Below the pieces are notes generated by a model. It was not told the DNA's origin. It searched no databases and saw nothing but the letters and a program-made list of their open reading frames with translations. The position numbers and the translations under genes were made by a program. This document shows positions 2,286 to 23,907 of a DNA stretch of 33,306 nucleotides, one piece after another; position 1 is the first letter of the stretch, and the number at the start of each line of letters is the position of its first letter. This DNA comes from Dehalococcoidia bacterium. GTDB lineage: Bacteria > Chloroflexota > Dehalococcoidia > Dehalococcoidales > UBA1222. The stretch spans positions 1 to 33,306 of the forward strand of contig QZJY01000025.1 of the NCBI GenBank assembly GCA_003597995.1, given 5' to 3'.

Positions 2286-5200
2286 TTAAGGCTGCTTGAT
2301 AACGCCCAGCGTAATCGTGTGTCCGCCGAGCTTGTGTTCTTCGGTGCGGACGCCCTGAGGAGGGACCTCGAAGCGTATTTCACGAGAGAGCGTCTCGCGC
2401 TTAATGTAGGCGGCATAAGCCTGCATCACGTCCCGGACGTAATCATCGGACTGGTAGTAAGTAACTATATAGTCGGCGATTTCGAAACCGGCGGTCTTAC
2501 GCATGGTCTGCAAGCGGTGCACGATTTCGCGCGTCAGGCCTTCCTTGGCCAGTTCCGGGGTGATATTGGTATCGACAGCCACCCCCAGCTCCCCCTCTTC
2601 GCAGAAGGCACTCAGAGTAGTAGCCGTTTCGTTTACACCAATCTCGTCCGAAAAAACCAGTGACTTGACGTTGAGCTCTTCCAGAATCTGGTCATCAGAG
2701 CGCTTCAGCCCCTTCTTCTCACTGGCCGACCTCACCCTGACAACGGCTGCATTGAGCGGCTGGCGTACTTTGATAGCGGTCTGCGCCCGTGCCGCGCGTC
2801 CCAGGCTGGAGACCTTCATGGCCAGCCGGATATCGGCGGATAGGTTCTCATCTATAAGGCTCTCGTCCGCCTTGGGGAAATCCGCCAGGTGTACGCTGTC
2901 CGGGGCATCGGGATAGACCGTTACCACCAGGTTCTGATACATCTCTTCTGCCAGGAAAGGCATGAACGGCGCCAGCAGTTTGGAGAGCGTCACCAGGCAT
3001 TTATAAAGGGTCTGGTAGGCTGCCAGTTTATCTGTATCGCTCTCGCTCTTCCAGAAACGCCGCCGCGAGCGGCGCACGTACCAGTTGGAGAGAAAATCCA
3101 CGAAGCGTTCGATGGCGCGCCCGGCATCGGTGATATTGTAGCCGTCCAGGTCGGCGGTAACCTCTTTCACCAGTTGGTTGAGTTCGGAAAGTATCCAGCG
3201 GTCCAGCTCGGAGGGTTCCGGCCTGCTGGTATCCACAGCCGGGTTATATTTATCGATATTGGCATAGGTGACGAAGAAAGAATATACGTTCCACAGGATA
3301 AGCATGAACTGGCGCGTCACCTCAGAGACAAGCTGCTCCGAAAAACGCCGGGCATTGCCGGGAGGGGCCGCCGTGAATAGGTACCAGCGCAGGGCGTCTG
3401 CGCCGTATTTTTGCAACACTGGTAGCGGCTCCACCATATTGCCGCGTGATTTGCTCATCTTCTCGCCCTGGGCGTCCAGGATATGACCCAGGCAGATGAC
3501 ATTCTTATAGCAGGGCTTGTCGAAAAGCAAAGTAGAGATGGCGTGCAAGCTATAAAACCAGCCGCGCGTCTGGTCCACACCCTCGCAGATGTAGTCCGCC
3601 GGGAAACGCCCGTCCTCGAAGATGCCTCGGCTTTCCGGCTCGAAGGGGTAGTGCCACTGGGCTACCGGCATGGCGCCGGAATCAAACCAGCAGTCTATAA
3701 CTTCACTGGCCCGTTTCATCCTGCCATCGCATTTCTGGCAGTTGTATACGGCCTCGTCAACGTATGGGCGGTGGAGGTCCATAGGTTCCTTGAGGCCGCT
3801 GAAACCGGGCTTGGTTTTGAGTTCTGCCACGCTGCCGACGCACTCCTGCGCCCTACATTTTTCGCACTGCCACACTGGTAAAGGCGTGCCCCAGTAGCGC
3901 TCGCGGGAAAAGGCCCAGTCTACATTGTTGGCTAACCAGTCGCCGAAACGCCCCTCTTTAATATGCTCGGGGTACCAGTTAATCTGTTCGTTGCCCGCCA
4001 GTAGCCTGTCTTTCAGCATAGCCGTTTTTATATACCACGACTGCTTGGCGTAATAAAGGAGCGGCGTGTTGCAGCGCCAGCAGAACGGATAGGTATGGTG
4101 AATGGTCTCGGCCTTGAGGAGCAACCCTCTGGATTTCAGGTCGGAGATGATTTCCTTATCGGCGCTTTTGACGAACCTGCCGGCGAAGGGATAGCTGCCT
4201 GTTATCTTGCCCTGCAGGTCCACCTGTTGCACGAAGTCCAGCCCCTCAACCCTACCGGCTTCGAAGTCCGCCTCGCCAAAGGCCGGCGCCACATGCACGA
4301 TGCCCGTGCCGTCCTCCATAGTGACAAAGGAAGTGGCTATCACCCGGTAACTGAGGTTCGGGTCGGGGGCTTCCGCCTTGATGACCGGGCTCGATTGTGT
4401 CCCGCCGGTTTGAAAGCGCCTTCGCTCTACGCCGTAGTCATGCGGATTGTAGAGTGGAGTATATCGCAAACCTACGAGGTCCTGGCCCTTCACTACCGCC
4501 GCCACACGGGCGTGGCCCAGACCCGCTGCTGCCAGTCGAGCACAGGCCATGATAATATTCTCATTTTCGAGTTCCACTACAGCGTAGTCGGCATCAGCGC
4601 ACACAGCGAGTGCCGTATTGCCCGGCAACGTCCAGGGCGTGGTGGTCCAGGCAAGCAGGAATAGCGGCAAATGCGGACTCGCGCCCCCGCTAACGAGCTT
4701 ACCTACCGCGGACTCTTCAGTCACCTTAAACTTTATGTAAACCGATGGGTCAGGCGTGTCGTCCTTATATCCCTGCGCCACTTCGTGGGATGACAGCGAA
4801 GTGCCACAGCGCGGGCAGTGCGGCGTCACGCGGTAGCCCTGGTACACCAGCCCCTTATCCCACATCTGCTTGAGTATCCACCAGCCGCTTTCGATATAGC
4901 TGTTGTCCATGGTGATATAGGGATGCTCCAGGTCCACCCAGAAGCCGATGCGCTCGGTCAGGGAGTCCCATTCCTTCAGGTAGCGGAAGACGCTTTCCCG
5001 GCATTTGGCGTTGAATTTGTCGATTCCGTAGCGCTCGATATCCGTCTTATTGGAGAAGCCAAGCTGTTTCTCTACTTCGAGCTCAACCGGTAATCCATGG
5101 GTATCCCAACCGGCAATGCGCGGGGTATAGTAGCCCTGCATCGACTTGTAGCGCGGAATGATGTCTTTAAAAACACGCGAGATGACATGATGGATACCGG

Positions 5201-13789: not shown

Positions 13790-13825
13790 AGTGGCTGCCT
13801 CCTTTCCAGGAGGCAGCCACTTTTT
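13790..13825. terminator. Strong bidirectional terminator ending the mvhD-glt operon
   Basis: A perfect 14-bp stem (13790-13803 with 13808-13821) has a 4-nt loop and is followed by TTTTT on the plus strand. On the minus strand the stem is followed by TTTATAC. It separates the plus-strand 13459 gene from the minus-strand operon that ends at 13847. Confidence 0.88.
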
Positions 13826-13846: not shown

Positions 13847-16507
13847 CTAATCTGCCAGGCTTATTATTTTCTCCTTGACAGTGGATGTTTTGCTGCCTGC
13901 CAGGACAGTCGACTTCAACGGCTGAACCTTGCGATAGACCTCACTGTACAGCTTGCGTTCTCCCTTTACGGTGAGCAGGTCGTTCTCAACCGAGATACCG
14001 AAGAGTTTTTCGTTCTCCGCGAGGTATGGCAGTATCAGCTCCCAGTCAGCCTGAGAGGGCGTGGCGATTTCCCCGCCGTTGAGCTGCTCGTCAACCACTT
14101 TGCCGTGCGGGTCGCGCACGTAAATGGCACCGCCTGAAGCCAGCGAAAAAAGGTTGGAGCCGGGGTAAGGTGAATTCAACTCCTTGACCTGCCCGCTTTT
14201 TTCGTCGAATTCCATCCCGTTGAGGATGACAAATCCTCCACCCTTGAGCGGGTCACCCGCCATGAAAGATTCCGCCAGGAAGTCTAGGCATGTGCCGTTG
14301 ATAACCACCCTTGGGCGGCCCACGGCGTTGATGAGGGGGCGTCCGGCGGCATTGCCCATGATATACACCTCGCCGCCTTTGGCGCCGTACATAAAGGTCT
14401 GCCCGACGTCTCCGTATACCACCAGTTTGCCGCGCTTCATTATCTGACCGAGCTGGTCCTGAGCGTTGCCGTGGACTCTTATCTCCATCCCATCTATGCC
14501 CGAAGCCAGATAATCGCCAGAACTGTCATATACGTCTATGCGCACACCGTCGGTTTCCTTACCCAGCCCGCAGCCGGTGAAACGCTGGCCGCGGTAGCCG
14601 TAACAGATGAAGCTGCGCCATCCCTGCTGGAAAGCCGCGACTATATAGCGCGCGTCGCAGTCCTCACCTTCCGGCGGGAAATCCCGCGCGTCAATTACCA
14701 GCACCTTCTCGTTCCCAATAGGCGCTCCGAGCGTGCCGCGGCCGGCAAAGTTCAAACGGCGGTATTTCCCAACGGAATCCGTGTTGAAGCCGGGAACGGC
14801 GTCGAGCAAACGGTGCAGGGCATCTCGTATTATCTGCAACACCGAGCTGCGCTTTTTATCGCCGGTGGTGTATCTGCGGTCGTTCAAAGAGGTGAGGATA
14901 TCGATAGCCGCCGCTCTGGCTTTATCACTTTCCTGCCCCACTGTTACAAGTTCACTGCTTAGAAAAATGAGCGAGGCGTAGTTCCATTTATTCATGTTTC
15001 GCACAAAATAACTTAGGAGCTCGCTGTTGTCCGCCGCTGCCAGTGCGCTCCTTACAGCCTGGGATATGGCCTGGCGACTCACCGGAGCATCATAGTCAGA
15101 CGGAGCTTTAAAAGCTCTCTGGCCGGGTGGAACAGTGACACTCTCGCCAAACTTATTGGCGCAGGAGAGAATCTTACTGCCATCTCCTCTCCCCGAGTCG
15201 CGGACGGTGAACACGAAAGCCCCGCCGTCGGTGGCGCTGCCGCCGCGGGCGTTCCAATACTTGTCGGCGATTGGCCTGAAACGGTGATCCTCCCGCGAGA
15301 GGCTCTCCAGCGCGGCATCGATAGACTGCTTTTCCGAGCAGATGAAACCTATCTGCACTTCGCCCTCCTGGAGAGCGAATACCTGCGGCCTCAGCATGGA
15401 GGTGTCGGTAATGCCGATAAGCTGATGGTAATGTTTGTACGGGTTGTTACGGGCGATGATGAAGAACCACGGTCCGTCCGGCGAGGCCGGCAAGTGAGTA
15501 GATTGTATGTGTTTATAGATATGCTGTTTCTCAGGCAGCAACTGGTCGAAATCGTACTCAGATGTAGGAGCCATGGCTTCGATTATATACTCCAGCGGAT
15601 AGCCGAAAACGCGGTTCCACAGGTCGAAGAGTTGCACCGAGACTTCGGTATCGGTAAGGAACTGCTGGCGAATGTTGAACTGTTTCAAATATTCGGTTAT
15701 GGCATAGTAGTTGGCAAAGTCGCCGTTATGCACTAGCGCCTCGTCCATGCCGATAAACGGATGCGCACCGCCCGGGTGCCACACGCGTCCTTTGGTAGGA
15801 TAACGCTGGTGAGCTATCCAGCCGTACGCCTTGAAATCCTCCAGCCTGTAGTACTGCGCCACCTGTTCGGCATAGCCCACGATTTTAAGTATCATAATAT
15901 CGCGTCCGTGAGACAGTACGAAGGCACGTTTTTCAACCAGAGACGAGTAGTATTTCTGATTAAGACGGAAGGAGTTCTGCGAGATGAACTCGTCTTCGGC
16001 ATTGCGCACGTCCATATCGGACAGCTTGTTCTCAGCTACAAAACGCTTCAAGACGTCGGGTTTAACACGCACGAAATAACGCATGACGTCCGGCGGCCGT
16101 ACCTCCAGGCCTTTTACCTCACGGTAATCCGCCATGTGAGGCACCTCGGAGGCTTTATGCACATCGAGGAATGGAGTTATAAACTCGGTTTCTATCTCGG
16201 AGCGAGCAGAGGCATCGAGAAGCGCCACTTGCAGCAGATAATGGCTATCCAGCACCTCCTGTGATACTCCCAGGTCGGCAGCGGAAAGGCCCACCGCCGC
16301 GATGCCGCCGCCTTTGCCGTTGCCGCGGTTATGCATCTGCACCGAGGGCTCCATGATATGCCGGCCGCTCACCGGGACCGAGGCGATAAATCCGGTGACA
16401 CCGCAACCGCCTTCTTCCGCCGCTTTCCTCTCACCGGAATCGACATACGGTAACGCGCCCCGCGAGGCGAGAACTCTATCTATTATGGAATCATTGTCTT
16501 GAGCCAT
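13847..16507 (-). CDS. Fused class-II glutamine amidotransferase / GXGXG glutamate synthase domain protein
   Basis: An 886-residue protein made of two parts that archaeal-type glutamate synthases keep on separate genes (GltB1 and GltB3). The N-terminal part is an Ntn-type glutaminase. It has the catalytic Cys in GGCGVTGF (C35, so a 34-residue propeptide is expected to be cut off), then AHQRYPTKGR, HNGDFANYYA (260-269) and TDTEV (285-289). A linker of about 150 residues follows. The C-terminal part, from about residue 590, is the GXGXG beta-helix (GRGTLGAPIGN, MKRGKLVVYGDVGQTFMYGAKGG). It would release ammonia from glutamine and pass it to an FMN partner, presumably the product of the gene 8 bases upstream. 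It is last in the mvhD-metVF-glt operon. Confidence 0.87.
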   Translation of the reverse strand: MAQDNDSIIDRVLASRGALPYVDSGERKAAEEGGCGVTGFIASVPVSGRHIMEPSVQMHNRGNGKGGGIAAVGLSAADLGVSQEVLDSHYLLQVALLDASARSEIETEFITPFLDVHKASEVPHMADYREVKGLEVRPPDVMRYFVRVKPDVLKRFVAENKLSDMDVRNAEDEFISQNSFRLNQKYYSSLVEKRAFVLSHGRDIMILKIVGYAEQVAQYYRLEDFKAYGWIAHQRYPTKGRVWHPGGAHPFIGMDEALVHNGDFANYYAITEYLKQFNIRQQFLTDTEVSVQLFDLWNRVFGYPLEYIIEAMAPTSEYDFDQLLPEKQHIYKHIQSTHLPASPDGPWFFIIARNNPYKHYHQLIGITDTSMLRPQVFALQEGEVQIGFICSEKQSIDAALESLSREDHRFRPIADKYWNARGGSATDGGAFVFTVRDSGRGDGSKILSCANKFGESVTVPPGQRAFKAPSDYDAPVSRQAISQAVRSALAAADNSELLSYFVRNMNKWNYASLIFLSSELVTVGQESDKARAAAIDILTSLNDRRYTTGDKKRSSVLQIIRDALHRLLDAVPGFNTDSVGKYRRLNFAGRGTLGAPIGNEKVLVIDARDFPPEGEDCDARYIVAAFQQGWRSFICYGYRGQRFTGCGLGKETDGVRIDVYDSSGDYLASGIDGMEIRVHGNAQDQLGQIMKRGKLVVYGDVGQTFMYGAKGGEVYIMGNAAGRPLINAVGRPRVVINGTCLDFLAESFMAGDPLKGGGFVILNGMEFDEKSGQVKELNSPYPGSNLFSLASGGAIYVRDPHGKVVDEQLNGGEIATPSQADWELILPYLAENEKLFGISVENDLLTVKGERKLYSEVYRKVQPLKSTVLAGSKTSTVKEKIISLAD

Positions 16508-16515
16508 GGCTTTTC

Positions 16516-18066
16516 CTAAATGACCAGTTTATTCTTGGGTGCCTCTGGGTATTTCGACCTCTCAGCCTCATCAAGGTAGTCCATGTTGACCAGAAGGTCG
16601 CTCCGGCCAACGAGTTCTTTCATGCTGCGTAAACCGTACTGGCGCAGCAACTGGCACCACTGCTTGCGCCAGGCGAGGTACATATTCACAATACGCTGTT
16701 CGGCATATTCTTCGTTGATCATATACCCCAGCTCGGGGTCGGTAGAGGCGATGCCGCGGGCGCAACCCCGTCCGCTCTCGCACTTGCCACAGCGGATGCA
16801 GTCCAGCGCCACCAGGTCGGCCGTGCCGATGACCACACCGTCAGCCCCCAGCGCTATTGCCTTGGCCGCGTCCATGGCGTTCCTGATGCCGCCGCTGGCC
16901 ATAAGGCATACCTGATCGCGGATGCCCTCTTCCTTGAGAAAACGGTGTATGCGCGGAATGGCGTATTCGATGGGCATGGCGATATTCTTTTTGGCGATGT
17001 CGGGCGCCGCTCCGGTGCCGCCGTAGCTGCCGTCGAAGTGTATGATGTGGGCACCGGCGTAATAGCTGCCGACGGCCACCATGTCCGCATCGCTGGGCGT
17101 GGATACCTTAATGGAGACAAGGGCGCGGGGGTTGATTTCCTTAATCCAATCCACGTGTTTTTTGTGGTCTTCCACCGAATAGACGCTATGGAAAGGGAAA
17201 GGCGAGAAAAGAGAACTGCCCACCACCGTCTCGCGGATGGCGGCTACTTCAGGGGTCACTTTATCCCCTAAGAGGTGCCCGCCGAGTCCCGGCTTGGCGC
17301 CCTGGGCATATTTGAACTCTACTACCGGGGCGTTCTGAATGGTTTCCTCGCGCACGCCGAAAAGTCCGGTGGCTACCTGGGTAACCACATGCTCGGCATA
17401 CGGCAAAAACTCCGGCGGATATCCGCCCTCGCCGGTGCAGGTCATGGTGTTCAGGCGTGTAGCTGCCCGCGCCCGGCCCACTATCACCGGCAGAGCCGTC
17501 GAACCGAAGGACATGCCTCCGCCGTAGCATGGCAGCGACAACACCTTCTGCGGACGGCCGTCACCGCGGCGGTTGAGGTTCAGGCTGGTATCGATGTCCT
17601 CATCGTTGATGTCGAGATAATCCGCCGCATCGGGAATACGGAAACGCATTTTGTCGAAACCGCCGCCTGATGAACCCAGTGAATATTCCAGGTCCACTCG
17701 GGGAAGCTCGCCGGTCTCGGCCATGTGCCAGTGCCCGATGAGCATCTCCGGAGTCCAGCGGTAGTCGCCCAGTGCCTGCAGCGTCGGGTTCAAGTTCACG
17801 CTGAGCGCCTGGTTGGGGCAGCGCTTCACGCAGTAAAAATCGTTACCGGCGCAAGCGGTTCCGATACACAGATGCGAGCGCGGCGGCAGGGGCCTGGAGT
17901 AGCCCTCAGGTTTGATATGCACGCCATAGGGGCAGAGCTCGGCGCACAGGCCGCAAGCGGCGCAGCGCGAGTTGCGTTTAACTAAATACTTGCCGATGGG
18001 GTTGCGGAAGCGCGAAGGAGTGTTCACGGATTCAGGCAATATATTTTTAGTTTTGATGGTATTCAT
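16516..18066 (-). CDS. FMN-binding glutamate synthase domain protein with ferredoxin clusters (GltB2 type)
   Basis: The 516-residue protein starts with a ferredoxin-like region holding CxxCxxCxxxC (C35, C38, C41, C45) and a second Cys set (C67, C72, C79, C83). The FMN-binding barrel of glutamate synthase follows, with YGGGMSFGS (181-189), GEGGYPPEF, QGAKPGLGGHLLGDKV (255-270), DGSYGGTGAAPD (345-356), SGGIRNAMDA and GADGVVIGTADL. The iron-sulfur loop is CIRCGKCESGRGC (423-435). All catalytic landmarks are intact. The ATG at 18066 is used: the open frame extends 131 codons upstream but there it only overlaps the preceding gene in another frame. The start lies 4 bases after the preceding stop, so coupling is likely. 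It should condense 2-oxoglutarate with ammonia, with electrons through its Fe-S centres. Confidence 0.88.
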   Translation of the reverse strand: MNTIKTKNILPESVNTPSRFRNPIGKYLVKRNSRCAACGLCAELCPYGVHIKPEGYSRPLPPRSHLCIGTACAGNDFYCVKRCPNQALSVNLNPTLQALGDYRWTPEMLIGHWHMAETGELPRVDLEYSLGSSGGGFDKMRFRIPDAADYLDINDEDIDTSLNLNRRGDGRPQKVLSLPCYGGGMSFGSTALPVIVGRARAATRLNTMTCTGEGGYPPEFLPYAEHVVTQVATGLFGVREETIQNAPVVEFKYAQGAKPGLGGHLLGDKVTPEVAAIRETVVGSSLFSPFPFHSVYSVEDHKKHVDWIKEINPRALVSIKVSTPSDADMVAVGSYYAGAHIIHFDGSYGGTGAAPDIAKKNIAMPIEYAIPRIHRFLKEEGIRDQVCLMASGGIRNAMDAAKAIALGADGVVIGTADLVALDCIRCGKCESGRGCARGIASTDPELGYMINEEYAEQRIVNMYLAWRKQWCQLLRQYGLRSMKELVGRSDLLVNMDYLDEAERSKYPEAPKNKLVI

Positions 18067-18070
18067 ATAA

Positions 18071-19477
18071 TCACCCGCATGGTACTTTTCTCTGCCCGAA
18101 GATGGGCGCGAAGCTCTCTCTTTCGAGGTCTTCCAGGAACAGGGCGCGCCCCACCTCGCCGCGCAGGCGGCGCACCTCGCGGATGCCGCAGGCTCCCATA
18201 ACCTCCAGAAGCTGGTTATGCCAGGCGCCGATAAGATTGACGATGCGTTGTACCCCCCAGGCGACATAGATGTCCCCGATGTCCACCGGGCAGGATTCGC
18301 CTCGCTTGCAGCGCCCGCACAGACGGCATTCAAGGGCGATGAGCATGGGAATGTCCACCACCACCCCGTCGGCCCCGCAGATGACAGCCTTGGCCATATG
18401 CTCGGCCATGGCGATGCCGCCGGAGAAGAGAAGATTGACTGTAGGACGCACCTTGCCATCCACCAGCTTGCGGTGGATCTCGCGTATCATATCGCGCAGG
18501 GTGCGCGGGTTGGAAGAACCTGTTTCGCGGCCGTTGTCTTCGGCATAAAAATGCAGCACGTCCACGCCGGTGCCCGTTAGTTCGAGAGCGCGCGAGGCCG
18601 CCGAGGCGTCAAGCGGCAGGCCGACCGAGATGAGCAATCCGGGTTTGAAACCGCGCAGCGTGGCAAATTCGCGCTCTATTCCGGATGAGTCGACCATCTC
18701 GACCATCCGGCTCTTGCAGATTATGTCAACATATTCCTTATAATTAGCCGCGTCCAGCCTGGGCACCATGGTGCCGTCAAACCCGGTGAAAGATGAGGAA
18801 TAATCTTTCGCATCGATGAGCATCAAAGTATGCAGCTTTTGCGCCGCCCCGGCCATGGCCAGCAGCTCCTTCTGGCTCAGCACGCCGAAAGCGGGCGGCT
18901 GCAAGATCACAGGGAGAGGGATTTCCACGATTTCGGGAAGTGATACTGGTAAATTCCCTTCCTTATCGAAGATGAGCCTCATCGGCTTGCGTGAAAGCTC
19001 TATGGAGGTGCTGATATACTCGCGCCCGTGGATGCCATCACGCGTGGGGCGCACGATTTCGGACATATCGGTCCACATGGCATCGAAACCCGCGCCACTG
19101 AACAGCCCACGGTAACCCGCGCCGGAAACTGGAATTCTTCCGGTGTGGGCCTGGAACCAGGTCTGGTTGATGATTTCGGGCTGCCAGTACTCGTCGCCCA
19201 TGAGCGTGTATTCCGGATTGATGACGGGTGAAAAAATACCCTTGGTGCATTCTTGCACGCAGCGGAAACAGCTCTGGCATATATAGAGAAACTCCGGCTC
19301 ATCCATGGTGATGACGTGCTGGTAGCTATCCTTGTAGACGTTGTAGACGCACTTCTTCTTGACGCACTGCCGGCAACTTCCGGCGCAGTCCTCGCGGAAC
19401 TCCACCGTTGAAAACTTGCCCACCGCCAGAAAACGCGGCGGCGCGGCTTTCGTCTCTATATGATATTTTTTAGGCAT
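18071..19477 (-). CDS. Divergent glutamate-synthase-like Fe-S flavoprotein
   Basis: The 468-residue protein is a distant paralogue of the following gene. N-terminal Cys sets C31/C35/C38/C43 and C67/C70/C73/C77 suggest two 4Fe-4S clusters. A barrel of the FMN-binding glutamate synthase type follows (SGGIAMAEHMAKAVICGADGVVVDIP) and ends in CRLCGRCKRGESC (384-396), the counterpart of the glutamate synthase Fe-S loop. The GGTG motif and the QGAKPGxGG motif of true glutamate synthases are missing; AEDNGRETG (312-320) stands where DGxxGGTG would be. It probably still binds a flavin and clusters but may not make glutamate. An electron-transfer or non-standard catalytic subunit is my inference. It is 11 bases downstream of metF. 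Confidence 0.78.
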   Translation of the reverse strand: MPKKYHIETKAAPPRFLAVGKFSTVEFREDCAGSCRQCVKKKCVYNVYKDSYQHVITMDEPEFLYICQSCFRCVQECTKGIFSPVINPEYTLMGDEYWQPEIINQTWFQAHTGRIPVSGAGYRGLFSGAGFDAMWTDMSEIVRPTRDGIHGREYISTSIELSRKPMRLIFDKEGNLPVSLPEIVEIPLPVILQPPAFGVLSQKELLAMAGAAQKLHTLMLIDAKDYSSSFTGFDGTMVPRLDAANYKEYVDIICKSRMVEMVDSSGIEREFATLRGFKPGLLISVGLPLDASAASRALELTGTGVDVLHFYAEDNGRETGSSNPRTLRDMIREIHRKLVDGKVRPTVNLLFSGGIAMAEHMAKAVICGADGVVVDIPMLIALECRLCGRCKRGESCPVDIGDIYVAWGVQRIVNLIGAWHNQLLEVMGACGIREVRRLRGEVGRALFLEDLERESFAPIFGQRKVPCG

Positions 19478-19488
19478 ATCGCTAATAC

Positions 19489-20418
19489 CTACTTCATCGG
19501 ACGCGGCATCAGTCCGGCGGCCTTTACCAGATCGGGTACTCGTTCCTCGGCTTCGATGGCCATGATGTGTATACCTCTAACACCGGGGATAGCCCGCAGC
19601 TCGGCGATAGTCTCAATGGCAATTTTCAAACCTTCCTCAACTGCCTTCGGTCCGGTCACCCCCGCCATGCGTTTAATAACTGCTTCGGGCACATCCATTC
19701 CGGCGACCTTCGTCGCCATGAACTGCGCCATTTTAGCTGACTTGAGAGGCGTGATGCCCGCCAGGATGTATACCTTTTCCGTCAGTCCTTCTTCCCGCGC
19801 CATCCGCATCCATTCCCTGAAACGCGGCAGGTCATAAACGCACTGCGTCTGGATGAAATCGACACCTGCGGCGATTTTCTTGGCCAGCCGCACCACGCGG
19901 TAAGACAACGGGTCGGCAAAGGGGTTCTCGGCGGCTCCGATAAACATTTCAGGCGCGCCGTTCAGCGCGAAGCCGCTCATGTCTTTGCCCTCGTCGCGCA
20001 TGACGCGCACGGCATGCACAAGATTGACCGAGTCGATATCGAACACATTTGACGCTTCCGGCTGGCTGCCCAGGCTCTGATGGTCGCCTGAAAGGCACAG
20101 CATATTGCGAATCCCCAGAGAGTAGGCGCCTATGATATCCGACTGCAGCGCGATGCGGTTGCGGTCTCGCGTGACCATCTGCATAACGGGCTCGATGCCC
20201 AGCTCTAACAGGTGCAAACAGGCAGCCAGGCTGCTCATTCGCACCACAGCCGTCTGGTTGTCGGTGACGTTCACCGCATCCACGCAGCTTTTGAGCCACT
20301 CGCCCTTCCTGTGTATAATCTCAGCATTGGCGCCCCTGGGTGGCCCGCACTCCGCGGTTACCGCAAAGCCCCCGCCGGCAAGGACGCTTTTAAGTTTGCT
20401 CGCTCCGTCGCTTTTCAT
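19489..20418 (-). CDS. metF: Methylenetetrahydrofolate reductase (MetF)
   Basis: TIM-barrel flavoenzyme of 309 residues that reduces 5,10-methylene-THF to 5-methyl-THF. The folate and FAD barrel motifs are present: AVTAECGPPRG, DAVNVTDN, QMVTRDRNRIALQSDIIGAYSLGIRNMLCLSGD, GVDFIQTQCVYD and ILAGITPLKSAKMAQFM. It overlaps metV by four bases (ATGA) and is thus coupled to it. The MetV partner marks it as the acetogen-type MetVF form, which in Moorella works with HdrABC-MvhD rather than directly with NAD(P)H. In this locus it may supply methyl groups to the Wood-Ljungdahl carbonyl branch or to methionine synthesis. Confidence 0.94.
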   Translation of the reverse strand: MKSDGASKLKSVLAGGGFAVTAECGPPRGANAEIIHRKGEWLKSCVDAVNVTDNQTAVVRMSSLAACLHLLELGIEPVMQMVTRDRNRIALQSDIIGAYSLGIRNMLCLSGDHQSLGSQPEASNVFDIDSVNLVHAVRVMRDEGKDMSGFALNGAPEMFIGAAENPFADPLSYRVVRLAKKIAAGVDFIQTQCVYDLPRFREWMRMAREEGLTEKVYILAGITPLKSAKMAQFMATKVAGMDVPEAVIKRMAGVTGPKAVEEGLKIAIETIAELRAIPGVRGIHIMAIEAEERVPDLVKAAGLMPRPMK

Positions 20419-21083
20419 ATAACGTGGTCCTCTCGTAGTAAGCGGCGCGGCCCGCCGGCCAGACTGGGACGCCAGTCCTTGGCCGGGATATAGCGCTTCA
20501 AATTACCTTGCAGCCCCAGGGCTGTCAGACGGTCGATAATAAGCTGCCAGGCGCAGTCTATATCGGGGCTGACTTCGCACTTGCCGTTCTTCGACCCTCC
20601 GCAGGGCCCGTTCATCAGGCGCTTGGAGCAGCGCGTCACCGGGCAGATACCCCCGAAGGTGTCCAGATCGCAGTCGCCGCAGCCAGAGCATTCTTCAGTG
20701 AATAAACCGGGTTTTTCCAGAACGCCGATAAAAGTCGTATTTACTCCGGGAAGCAGTACAGATTTAGCAAAGCGCCGTGCCATGGCCTGAACGCCGGCCC
20801 CGCAGGCTAAAGAGAGTACGGCTTCGTTACGCGCCACTGCTTGCGCCGCCTCCTGTATGAAGGCATCCTCACACTGGCGCTCTACGGTCAGCTCCTCGGT
20901 CTCAATGGACTTGCTCTCCTGGCCGAAAGCTAGGCGGAGAGCCGCGCCCAGAGTGGCTGCTTCGTCCTCTCCGCCGGCAAAGCACGTCTTGACGCAGGTG
21001 CCGCATCCCAGGATGAGCACTTTCTGGTAAGGCCGCAGCATCTCTTTTATTTCAGCGATAGGTTTCTGTTTGGCGACTATCAT
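20415..21083 (-). CDS. metV: MetV, iron-sulfur/zinc partner of MetF (MTHFR C-terminal domain)
   Basis: Cys-rich protein of 222 residues. The N-terminal part has LGCGTCVKTCFAGG (C27, C30, C34) and the C-terminal part has ECSGCGDCDLDTFGGICPVTRC and LMNGPCGGSKNGKC. This matches the MetV/methylene-tetrahydrofolate reductase C-terminal family, which carries Fe-S clusters and a zinc site and forms a tight complex with MetF. Its end overlaps the metF start. It links MetF to an electron donor other than NAD(P)H; the neighbouring mvhD-like and Fe-S flavoprotein genes are candidates. Confidence 0.88.
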   Translation of the reverse strand: MIVAKQKPIAEIKEMLRPYQKVLILGCGTCVKTCFAGGEDEAATLGAALRLAFGQESKSIETEELTVERQCEDAFIQEAAQAVARNEAVLSLACGAGVQAMARRFAKSVLLPGVNTTFIGVLEKPGLFTEECSGCGDCDLDTFGGICPVTRCSKRLMNGPCGGSKNGKCEVSPDIDCAWQLIIDRLTALGLQGNLKRYIPAKDWRPSLAGGPRRLLREDHVI

Positions 21084-21136
21084 GGGTTATCTCCATTGTA
21101 TCAAGGATTGTATTCATCAAGCTGTAACTCTGGTCT

Positions 21137-21550
21137 CTATCTGGGACTAGCTTGCGCGGCCGGCTTAACCGGATTGGGTCCCAGTTCTGCCAGTCCTTTT
21201 AGCAGAAGAGTTATGGCAGCGTCCGTGTCACTGCTGGCGGTATAAACTAGCCTCTTGCCGCCCAGGCCTATCTCATCCAGCAGTTTTTGCACCCAGGCAA
21301 CGCGTTTGGCTGCCCGAATATTGCCGTCGACGCGCTTACATCTGCCGGCAGGGCAGCCTACGACCATCACTCCGTCAGCGCCACATTCGAAGGCTTTCAG
21401 CATGAAAATATCTTTGATCATGGATGAGCAGGGCATTTTCACGCTTTGTATGCGAGCAGCCTTTTCCGGGTCCTGCGTAGAAAAAACGCCCCGGTCTAAG
21501 GCGTTTACACAGAAGAACACGTGTATCTTTGGTTCGAATTTGCTGCTCAT
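21137..21550 (-). CDS. mvhD: MvhD/FlpD-type hydrogenase iron-sulfur subunit (heterodisulfide reductase delta-like)
   Basis: The 137-residue product fits the FlpD/MvhD family, small 2Fe-2S proteins that carry electrons to HdrA. The signature GADGVMVVGCPAGRCKRVDGN (57-77) is clear, with Cys at 14, 41, 66 and 71. The usual CNWC near the N-terminus is reduced to a single Cys (FFCVNALD). The ATG at 21550 matches the family start (MSSKFEPKIH). An ATG ten codons upstream is also possible; neither has a strong ribosome binding site. It is first in the operon, 53 bases before metV. No hdrA is seen in the window. Confidence 0.85.
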   Translation of the reverse strand: MSSKFEPKIHVFFCVNALDRGVFSTQDPEKAARIQSVKMPCSSMIKDIFMLKAFECGADGVMVVGCPAGRCKRVDGNIRAAKRVAWVQKLLDEIGLGGKRLVYTASSDTDAAITLLLKGLAELGPNPVKPAAQASPR

Positions 21551-21685
21551 ATATCTATCACAGCCTTCAGTGCCTGTCATTTTACTGCTTCTTGAGACAG
21601 CTTAACGGCAACAATTCCCGTAAACTGATTCTGCTCAGGCTGATAAACCATCAGGATACGGTATATGGTTGCCGATAGTGAATTT

Positions 21686-21715
21686 ACTATACTACAGCCT
21701 GAATTGGCTTGTCAA
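21686..21715 (-). promoter_or_regulatory. Promoter of the mvhD-metV-metF-glt operon
   Basis: TTGACA (21710-21715) and TATAGT (21686-21691) on the minus strand are separated by 18 bp. Transcription would start near 21679, leaving a leader of about 130 nt before the mvhD ATG. I recognise no known riboswitch in that leader. Confidence 0.75.
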
Positions 21716-21870: not shown

Positions 21871-23868
21871 CTAGCGAATGAGCGAGATCAGACCGGTGCT
21901 CAGGGCTACCGCCGCGATAACAGCGGCAACAAAGACCAGCACGATGATAACGGTGAGTTCGCGCGAACCGATAATTCTCTTGATCAACTCTCTCAGGTTT
22001 TCTTCATTGCGCAGGGCTTCCTCAGCCTTTTCCTGGGCTTCTTTGGCGGCACGCTCGGCAGCAGCCATGGCGCGCGCACTGGCTTCCTCAGCCCTGCGCG
22101 CGGCGTCTTCCGCCGCCCTCTTGGCTTCTGCTGCCCTGGCGGCGGCGCCTTCGCCCACGCTGCGGGCAGAGTTGGCCGCATCCTTAGCTTCGCGTGCAAC
22201 AGCTTCCGCGCGGCGGGCAGCTTCTTCGGCGGCTTTGCGCGCGTCTTCAGCGGCTTTCTTGGAGGCTTCGGCCGCCTCCTTGGCGGCGCGGATGGCCTCC
22301 TCCGCCTCTTTGGTCGCTTTGGCGGCTGCATCCCTGGCAACCATTTCAGCCCGGAGGGCGGCTGCCTCAGCGGCCTTGCGCGCGTCTTCGGCGGCTTTTT
22401 TGGCAGCTTCCGCTGCCTCCCTGGCGGCGCGAATAGCCTCTTCAACGCCTGTAGCGGCGCTGGCGGCGGCTTCCTTGGCGACCGCTTCGGCGCGCCGGGC
22501 GGCCGCCTCAGCAGCCTTGCGCGCGTCCTCGGCGGCCTTTTTGGCAGCTTCCGCTGCCTCCCTGGCGGCGCGGATGGCCTCCTCGGCACCGGTGGCAGCT
22601 TCGCTGGCTGCCGTCTGGGCTGCTTCAGTAGCTGTTTTCGATGCCTGAATGGAGGCTTTGGCGGCGGCCTCAGCGGCCTTGGCCATATCCTCGGCCATGG
22701 CCACCAGTTTGTGCAATGCCTGAGCGGAGGCCTGGATGGCTTCATCACCCAGCAGGTCCGCTGCTTCGGCCTTCTTGAACGCCTTGTCGGCTACGTCGTA
22801 TCCTTTTGTGGCCGCTGCCTTGGCTTCAAGCCCGGCCGTTTCAACTCTTTCGGCCACCTTTCCACTCACTCTTACCGAAGCTTCTATAGCTTCGTCGCCG
22901 GCGATATCGGCCAATGCAGAGCGGCGACGTACATCCTCGGCAGCCTGGAAAGTGGCGGATGCCAGTCTCTTGCTCTTCCTGCCAGCTTCATCGGCCTTGA
23001 TGGCAGTTTGAGCGGTGATATGAGCAGCCAGCTCAGCCCTGGCGGCTTTGACCTCTTTGGCGCTGTCGTCAGCCTCTTTGGCTGATTTATTGGCTTTTTC
23101 AATGGCCGCAAGCACGGCGGCTTTGGCTGCGCTGGCAGCTCCTTCTGCCCGGGCGGCAGTTTCACCGGCGGCCTTGGCTGCTGCTGCAGCGGCTTCTCTG
23201 GCAGCCAGTTCAACTTCCTCGGCTTTACGCGCTGCTTCTTCCGCGGCATACTTGGCCCCGCGTGCCGTTTCCTCCGCTTTAAGAGCGGCCTTTTCGGCTT
23301 TCCTGGCAGCTTCTTCCGCAGCCAGCGTGGCGCTCTCGGCGGCCTTACGGGCCATAGCGATGGCTTCGGCGGCAGCTTTCTTGGCGGCTTCGGCGGCCTC
23401 TCTGGCGGCCTTTACAGCTTCTTCCGCCCCCAGGATGGCTTTTCGGCTGGCTTCTTCGGCACGCCGGGCGGCTTCATCGGCCGCTTTTTTAAAGGCTTCC
23501 AATGCCCTTCTGGATTCCCTGTCGGCTTCTTCGGCCTTGCGGATGGCTTCTTCAGCGGCCAGCTTGGCGGCCTTGGCCTGCGCCTCAGCCTTGGCGGCGG
23601 CTTCCTGAGCAGCGCGGGTGGCTGTCTCAGCCGCTTTTTCTCCAGCCTGCCGGGCTTCTATCGCCCGGGCTTGAGCCTCTTTGGAAGCCTTGGTGGCTGA
23701 AAGGGCAGCTTCACGCGCCAGTTTGGCGGCTTCCTCGGCCCTGCGGGCGGCTTCGGTTGCCGCATCGATATTGCTGTCCATCTCATCGAGTATCTGGGGC
23801 AGCGGTTTGCTCATTATTTTTATGTGTTCGGCGGCCTTCTTCACGGGCTCAGTAACTTTTGGCGACAT
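21871..23868 (-). CDS. Ala/Glu/Lys-rich helical repeat protein with C-terminal membrane anchor
   Basis: I do not recognise a named family. The 665-residue protein is almost entirely amphipathic helix of the type AARRAEEAAKLAREAA, dominated by Ala, Glu, Lys and Arg with no Cys. It resembles LEA-like, tropomyosin-like or apolipoprotein-like helices more than leucine-zipper coiled coils. Residues 427-567 form three 47-residue near-identical repeats. A second pair of similar segments (GDEAIEAS, GDEAIQAS) lies mid-protein. It ends with one hydrophobic segment (ELTVIIVLVFVAAVIAAVA) near 637-660 and no N-terminal signal, so it should be tail-anchored with the long domain in the cytoplasm. The ATG at 23868 is chosen for AAGGAGGA six bases upstream. 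It has its own promoter and terminator. Confidence 0.85.
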   Translation of the reverse strand: MSPKVTEPVKKAAEHIKIMSKPLPQILDEMDSNIDAATEAARRAEEAAKLAREAALSATKASKEAQARAIEARQAGEKAAETATRAAQEAAAKAEAQAKAAKLAAEEAIRKAEEADRESRRALEAFKKAADEAARRAEEASRKAILGAEEAVKAAREAAEAAKKAAAEAIAMARKAAESATLAAEEAARKAEKAALKAEETARGAKYAAEEAARKAEEVELAAREAAAAAAKAAGETAARAEGAASAAKAAVLAAIEKANKSAKEADDSAKEVKAARAELAAHITAQTAIKADEAGRKSKRLASATFQAAEDVRRRSALADIAGDEAIEASVRVSGKVAERVETAGLEAKAAATKGYDVADKAFKKAEAADLLGDEAIQASAQALHKLVAMAEDMAKAAEAAAKASIQASKTATEAAQTAASEAATGAEEAIRAAREAAEAAKKAAEDARKAAEAAARRAEAVAKEAAASAATGVEEAIRAAREAAEAAKKAAEDARKAAEAAALRAEMVARDAAAKATKEAEEAIRAAKEAAEASKKAAEDARKAAEEAARRAEAVAREAKDAANSARSVGEGAAARAAEAKRAAEDAARRAEEASARAMAAAERAAKEAQEKAEEALRNEENLRELIKRIIGSRELTVIIVLVFVAAVIAAVALSTGLISLIR
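22168..22590 (-). repeat. Three 141-bp tandem in-frame repeats in the helical protein gene
   Basis: Three consecutive 47-codon units each encode (G/E)xEEAIRAAxEAAEAxKKAAEDARKAAExAA and a variable end. The first two copies are closest to each other; the third carries more substitutions. The unit length is a multiple of three, so copy-number change would keep the reading frame. Confidence 0.85.
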
Positions 23869-23907
23869 TTTCTTCCTCCTTAACCCTGAAAACACTCAGA
23901 CAAAAAC

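Follow-up and report, generated by a model that had tools for sequence, protein, structure and literature searches.

Nitrogen assimilation depends centrally on glutamate synthase, an enzyme for which NAD(P)H (via GltD), ferredoxin and F420 are known or proposed as electron suppliers. Archaeal-type, ferredoxin-dependent glutamate synthases have separate glutaminase, flavin mononucleotide (FMN) and GXGXG parts and no GltD. In anaerobic methanotrophic (ANME) archaea, F420-dependent glutamate synthases with FrhB have been proposed (PMC9012536), and a predicted HdrA/glutamate-synthase fusion has been named in Desulfobacterium autotrophicum (PMC2702500). MetVF is known with HdrABC-MvhD or RnfC2 as partners (PMC8515935; PMC5736913 for HdrABC-MvhD-MetVF-type systems). 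Here we describe an operon in a 33,306-nucleotide stretch of DNA from a Dehalococcoidia bacterium (hereafter the window), in which MvhD, MetV and MetF are joined to a three-gene glutamate-synthase assembly. As contig C25, the window belongs to a 1.80-Mb metagenome-assembled genome (MAG) with a completeness of 95.5%, whose closest relative among the genomes compared is an uncultured Dehalococcoidia bacterium. The best explanation of the whole, to which we give about an even chance, is a glutamate synthase lacking GltD in which an electron relay from MvhD-MetVF takes the place of that subunit. Searches of open-licence papers found no description of this six-gene set, which agrees with the original prediction that its make-up is apparently undescribed.

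The operon comprises six intact open reading frames (ORFs) on the minus strand, running from 21580 to 13847 in the order MvhD, MetV, MetF, FesX, GltF and GatG, with intergenic gaps of 53, -4, 11, 4 and 8 nt when the GltF start is set at 18066; the predicted run of six same-strand genes with gaps of -4 to 53 nt was thereby confirmed. FesX, GltF and GatG are working names for an Fe-S glutamate-synthase-like protein, an FMN/Fe-S synthase subunit and a glutaminase-GXGXG fusion, respectively. Like the archaeal-type enzyme, which is present in relatives of the window genome in similar surroundings, the assembly has an Fe-S plus FMN/2-oxoglutarate layout in GltF and glutaminase and GXGXG domains in GatG; it differs in that the latter two are fused, an additional paralogue lacking the 2-oxoglutarate site (FesX) is present and MvhD-MetV-MetF stand in front. 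The reaction predicted for GltF-GatG, in which the catalytic residues are kept, is that of the NADPH-dependent GltBD, but here GltD is missing, two proteins make up what is a single large subunit there, and the predicted electron supply is different. With HdrABC-MvhD-MetVF systems, a cluster of which occurs elsewhere in several operon genomes, the locus shares MvhD, MetV and MetF in one operon, HdrABC being replaced by FesX-GltF-GatG. With the ANME F420 glutamate synthases it shares a cluster with a non-GltD input protein, although the input is FrhB/F420 there and MvhD-MetV-MetF here (PMC9012536).

The gltF gene (16516-18066, 516 aa) encodes a ferredoxin-like Fe-S domain followed by an FMN/2-oxoglutarate synthase domain (Pfam Fer4 and Glu_synthase, the latter with E=2e-87), and its product aligned with the solved GltS alpha chains at 1e-48. 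Residues E213, Q255, K258 and R278, which are known to hold 2-oxoglutarate in glutamate synthase, were invariant in 76 of 76 sequences. The product of gatG (13847-16507, 886 aa) is an N-terminal-nucleophile glutaminase fused to a GXGXG domain (PF01493, E=9e-14), with a sub-threshold match to GATase_6. A 34-residue leader precedes Cys35, and C35, R235, N261-G262 and D286, the catalytic cysteine and its partners, were invariant across the aligned relatives; the predicted fold matched GltS and GlmS and, more weakly, PurF. The marks of a glutamate synthase, namely a glutaminase with a nucleophilic cysteine, a synthase domain with the E/Q/K/R set and a GXGXG domain, are thus all present. The GltD partner that marks the NADPH-type enzyme is absent from the operon, and a GltD/NfnB-type protein is encoded elsewhere in the genome, on contig C32. 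GltF alone gave a strong Glu_synthase match in the window genome (FesX came second, weakly), and full-length GltB was not found in 25 of the 30 operon genomes. Taken at sequence level, GltF is an ordinary synthase subunit that is not equivalent to FesX, and the FesX-GltF-GatG trio very probably constitutes a glutamate synthase. An extra Glu_synthase-family protein of about 550 aa is encoded near the operon in L102 (5072-6787), L108, L116 and L122, and in some loci it adjoins a KaiC-like/pyruvate-phosphate-dikinase-like gene.

The fesX gene (18071-19477, 468 aa) encodes N-terminal cysteine motifs and a glutamate-synthase-like FMN barrel, for which Pfam gave a weak Glu_synthase match confined to the C-terminal part. 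Profile comparison with GltF aligned 420 columns (E=1e-58). Across 84 aligned FesX sequences, the stretch that bears K258, R278 and H293 in GltF is missing and E213 and Q255 are substituted; about 97% of the sequences retain the four C-terminal cysteines, and there is near-invariance in the N-terminal cysteine motifs, which likely bind two clusters. Fold comparison of the predicted structure gave glutamate synthase alpha chains as the best matches, with Z of about 23, other FMN barrels reaching about 20; confidence in the Fe-S region of the model was low. FesX may or may not bind FMN, as one conserved glycine pair of the FMN positions is retained and others are lost. FesX and GltF are encoded by a single ORF in L119, in L121 and in four Dehalococcoidia genomes. 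Judged from these alignments, FesX is a GltF paralogue that has lost the 2-oxoglutarate site and retained its Fe-S cysteines, and most simply it would act as an electron wire and docking subunit. The two Fe-S/FMN glutamate-synthase-like proteins of the original prediction are therefore both present, but they are not equivalent.

A scan for FesX with one genome per species yielded 80 loci, labelled as Deltaproteobacteria/Desulfobacterales, Dehalococcoidia/Chloroflexi, Nitrospirae, Verrucomicrobia, Phycisphaerales, Sedimentisphaerales, Acidobacteria and Polyangiaceae. In the 51 loci with sufficient upstream sequence, FesX was preceded by MvhD in all 51, by MetF in 47 and by MetV in 38, and GatG lay downstream in 54 of 55. 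The core genes were co-stranded in 84 of 84 loci, with median spacings of -4 nt for metV-metF, 15 for metF-fesX, 3 for fesX-gltF and 23 for gltF-gatG. That gene order and orientation recur in dozens of genomes from several phyla rules out chance clustering and extends conservation beyond a single strain. Pairwise distances of MetV correlated with those of FesX (r=0.93) and GltF (r=0.94), correlations to which shared ancestry contributes. Within the window's own class the distribution of FesX is patchy (16 of 196 genomes, 14 of 134 genera).

The surroundings of the operon point to nitrogen assimilation. Genes of the glnA/glnK/amtB set were found nearby in 19 of 51 loci of at least 12 kb and in 0 of 25 comparison stretches, chosen in operon genomes around MTHFR (methylenetetrahydrofolate reductase), carbon monoxide dehydrogenase/acetyl-CoA synthase (CODH/ACS) and GltD-like genes (Fisher p=1.6e-4). 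Among Dehalococcoidia, the regulator NrpR adjoins the operon in L204, L206, L207 and L208 and shares its contig in more genomes. Where the trio occurs without MetVF, it lies between hisH and hisF (G024), after amtB-glnK (G012) or after amtB-glnK-glnA (G048), slots that resemble those holding the archaeal-type glutamate synthase in relatives. In the Dehalococcoidia loci L199, L203, L204, L038 and L042, hisF and sometimes hisH stand beside the glutamate synthase genes. From its neighbours we infer that the operon is part of a nitrogen regulon.

The three genes ahead of fesX encode a putative electron input. The mvhD-like gene (21137-21580, 147 aa; FlpD, E=2e-21) encodes a predicted [2Fe-2S] electron adaptor. 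This protein matched structurally solved MvhD/VhuD chains (1e-16 to 1e-11), and its C24, C51, C76 and C81 are conserved among relatives. The metV product (20415-21083, 222 aa; DUF5981, E=6e-36), a multi-cysteine Fe-S partner of MetF, has 13 conserved cysteines; an operon-specific MetV tail was rejected, the same tail being present in other MetV proteins. The metF gene (19489-20418, 309 aa; MTHFR, E=2e-37), which overlaps metV by 4 nt, encodes a MetVF-type methylene-tetrahydrofolate (methylene-THF) reductase flavoprotein. It retains E23, D112 and Q192, which correspond to E28, D120 and Q183 of the E. coli enzyme. This Glu, Asp and Gln are kept in MetV-bearing loci, with L114 (Asp lost) as the sole exception. 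In MetV-less loci the Asp was lost in 14 of 14 aligned sequences and in two further genomes, and folate catalysis has probably been lost from the MetF of that clade. The reading of a 448-aa ORF in L202 as a MetF-MvhD fusion was rejected, its N-terminal extension being a wrong-frame over-extension that is preceded by separate MvhD and MetV frames.

The slot ahead of FesX is variable, being filled by MvhD-MetV-MetF, by MvhD-MetF, by MvhD alone or by a GlcD-type FAD/Fe-S protein, or left empty (G024). The replacing protein in L040 (6229-8073), L041 (7333-9177), L204 and L205 is a 614-aa flavoprotein with FAD_binding_4 and 4Fe-4S domains. The reading that fits best takes the trio as the glutamate synthase of the cell and MvhD-MetVF as an exchangeable add-on. 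With few exceptions, the operon MetF proteins form clades of their own, distinct from the other MetF proteins of the same genomes; further MTHFR genes occur in nearly all operon genomes, several adjoining HdrABC-MvhD or CODH/ACS. Besides the operon MetF, the window genome encodes one of the E. coli type that stands alone and a third protein that is MetF-MetV-like; CODH/ACS is present as well. On contig C59 of the same MAG (G000), L145 (997-2625) encodes 542 aa with MTHFR and MetV-type DUF5981 in one chain, a MetF-MetV-like fusion, and MTHFR-family ORFs of similar length were seen in G024 (541 aa) and G001 (543 aa).

The original prediction had also stated that neither HdrA nor GltD is present, which holds for the operon; beyond it, the MAG has the GltD/NfnB-type protein on C32, and HdrA is not missing everywhere, hdrC-hdrB-hdrA lying downstream of the operon in several MetV-less loci. 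Full-length HdrA was not found in the window MAG, so reliance on an HdrA encoded elsewhere was set aside for this genome, although a gene could lie outside the incomplete MAG. HdrA proteins that span 1050-1500 aa and include a GltD-like part, most of them downstream of a MetV-less operon, were observed in L114 (1072-5571), L087, L090, L096, L101 and L104; this part was recognised by its domains (Fer4_20 and Pyr_redox_2) in L114, and by length and a nucleotide-binding motif only in the others.

In the mechanism that we favour, GatG would free ammonia from glutamine, and GltF, with its FMN and Fe-S clusters, would reduce 2-oxoglutarate together with that ammonia to glutamate; conservation of the catalytic residues argues strongly for both steps. 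FesX, unable to bind 2-oxoglutarate, would supply the Fe-S wire and the docking surface, MvhD would join it to MetVF, and electrons would enter at the MetF flavin. In the MetV-containing clade of the window, entry would most likely proceed by oxidation of methyl-THF to methylene-THF; in the MetV-less clade, the entry point would be a flavoprotein descended from MetF, in which folate catalysis has probably been lost. Functional coupling of MvhD-MetVF to the trio is likely, and an electron link is the best reading of the predicted passage of electrons among ferredoxin, MetVF and glutamate formation, with donor and direction inferred only. We give a flow from MetF to GltF slightly less than an even chance. 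Methyl-THF as the donor is doubtful, although possible in the window's clade because MetF keeps the folate residues there. Glutamate formation has a midpoint potential of about -120 to -130 mV. That of methylene-/methyl-THF is about -200 mV (PMC8515935). The folate couple lies lower, which would allow a flow of electrons from methyl-THF towards glutamate. The most explicit form of the proposal, a single six-protein complex in which methyl-THF oxidation at MetF drives glutamate synthesis at GltF via MetV, MvhD and FesX, with the MetF of the MetV-less clade as a folate-free electron-transfer flavoprotein, is unlikely.

Several points weigh against a relay from MetF to GltF. The MetF of the window's clade retains all folate-catalysis residues and may hence be a plain reductase, and the characterised MetVF of C. 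ljungdahlii moves electrons in the reverse direction, from ferredoxin, not NAD(P)H, to methylene-THF (PMC8515935). GltF has a ferredoxin-like domain of its own, so that a relay may be unnecessary, and the evidence for coupling consists of gene order, correlated distances and FesX-GltF fusions. In G044, which carries a MetV-less MetF, no other MTHFR was found. Glutamine synthetase (glnA) was not found in the window MAG; the family was matched in all 26 other genomes searched (in three by weak or partial matches only), and its absence, probably an assembly gap, was dropped as an argument against a glutamine-dependent enzyme because G001, of the same genus, has three copies.

The main rival is a complex with a shared donor, in which ferredoxin enters via the Fe-S domains of FesX and GltF, and MvhD-MetV pass part of the electrons to MetF for methylene-THF reduction; glutamate and methyl-THF would be its two outlets, possibly by flavin-based bifurcation. 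It would accommodate the ferredoxin use of the C. ljungdahlii enzyme (PMC8515935), the folate residues kept wherever MetV is present, except in L114, and the Fe-S motifs of both GltF and FesX. MvhD, moreover, partners HdrA in known complexes. We nevertheless regard the shared donor as unlikely, since the same genomes have other MTHFR genes, several of them beside HdrABC-MvhD or CODH/ACS, the MetV-less clade retains a MetF without the catalytic Asp, and the surroundings speak of nitrogen and not of one-carbon (C1) metabolism.

Mere co-regulation is improbable; in that case one operon would hold a ferredoxin-dependent glutamate synthase together with a reductase of the MetVF type because both feed biosynthesis, and the two would have no physical or electron link. 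The ferredoxin-like domain of GltF and the trio without MetVF in G024 and G012 fit such an arrangement, but the conservation together with MvhD across phyla does not; we know of no role for this electron adaptor in either enzyme alone, it stays beside FesX where MetVF is missing, and the whole module can be swapped for another flavoprotein. It is very improbable that the trio yields a different product, for example an N-methylated glutamate like that made by MgsABC, or effects some other amide-nitrogen transfer: it shares glutaminase, GXGXG and FMN domain types with MgsABC and has C1-folate genes within its operon, but those domains are encoded by separate genes there, whereas here we find the GatG fusion, Fe-S domains, FesX and a nitrogen-regulon context of glnA, glnK, amtB and NrpR, and the 2-oxoglutarate-holding residues are invariant in what is the main or only GltB-like protein of most operon genomes. 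Nothing found points to the N-methyl or methylene chemistry on glutamate suggested at first, and the residues at the 2-oxoglutarate and glutaminase sites match an ordinary glutamate synthase.

A sigma-70-like promoter candidate on the minus strand (TTGACA-N18-TATAGT, 21686-21715) lies about 105 nt upstream of the mvhD ATG and has only its 11/12 consensus match to recommend it. A terminator-like hairpin follows gatG on the same strand (13790-13821), with a perfect 14-bp stem and a poor T tail, in a region that folds at -35.4 kcal/mol (z=-6.2). The single promoter and terminator predicted were thus located as plausible candidates, since such sites, as a class, showed no clear excess over shuffled sequence. 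An NrpR operator (GGAA-N6-TTCC) was not found upstream of the operon; the sole match in the window, at 4985, equals the chance expectation. Directly upstream on the same strand, positions 21871-23895 encode a protein of 674 aa that is rich in Ala, Glu and Lys and probably coiled-coil; it contains long internal repeats and has a membrane segment at its C terminus.

The MetF paralogues of the operon genomes, some of which lack the catalytic Asp, probably function in nitrogen metabolism, so not every MetF or MetV match should be counted as a Wood-Ljungdahl gene. If the proposed relay is true, a MetF-based input would be a new type of electron supplier to glutamate synthase, common to uncultivated Chloroflexota, Desulfobacterota and other anaerobes, and C1 metabolism and nitrogen assimilation would be tied at the electron level.

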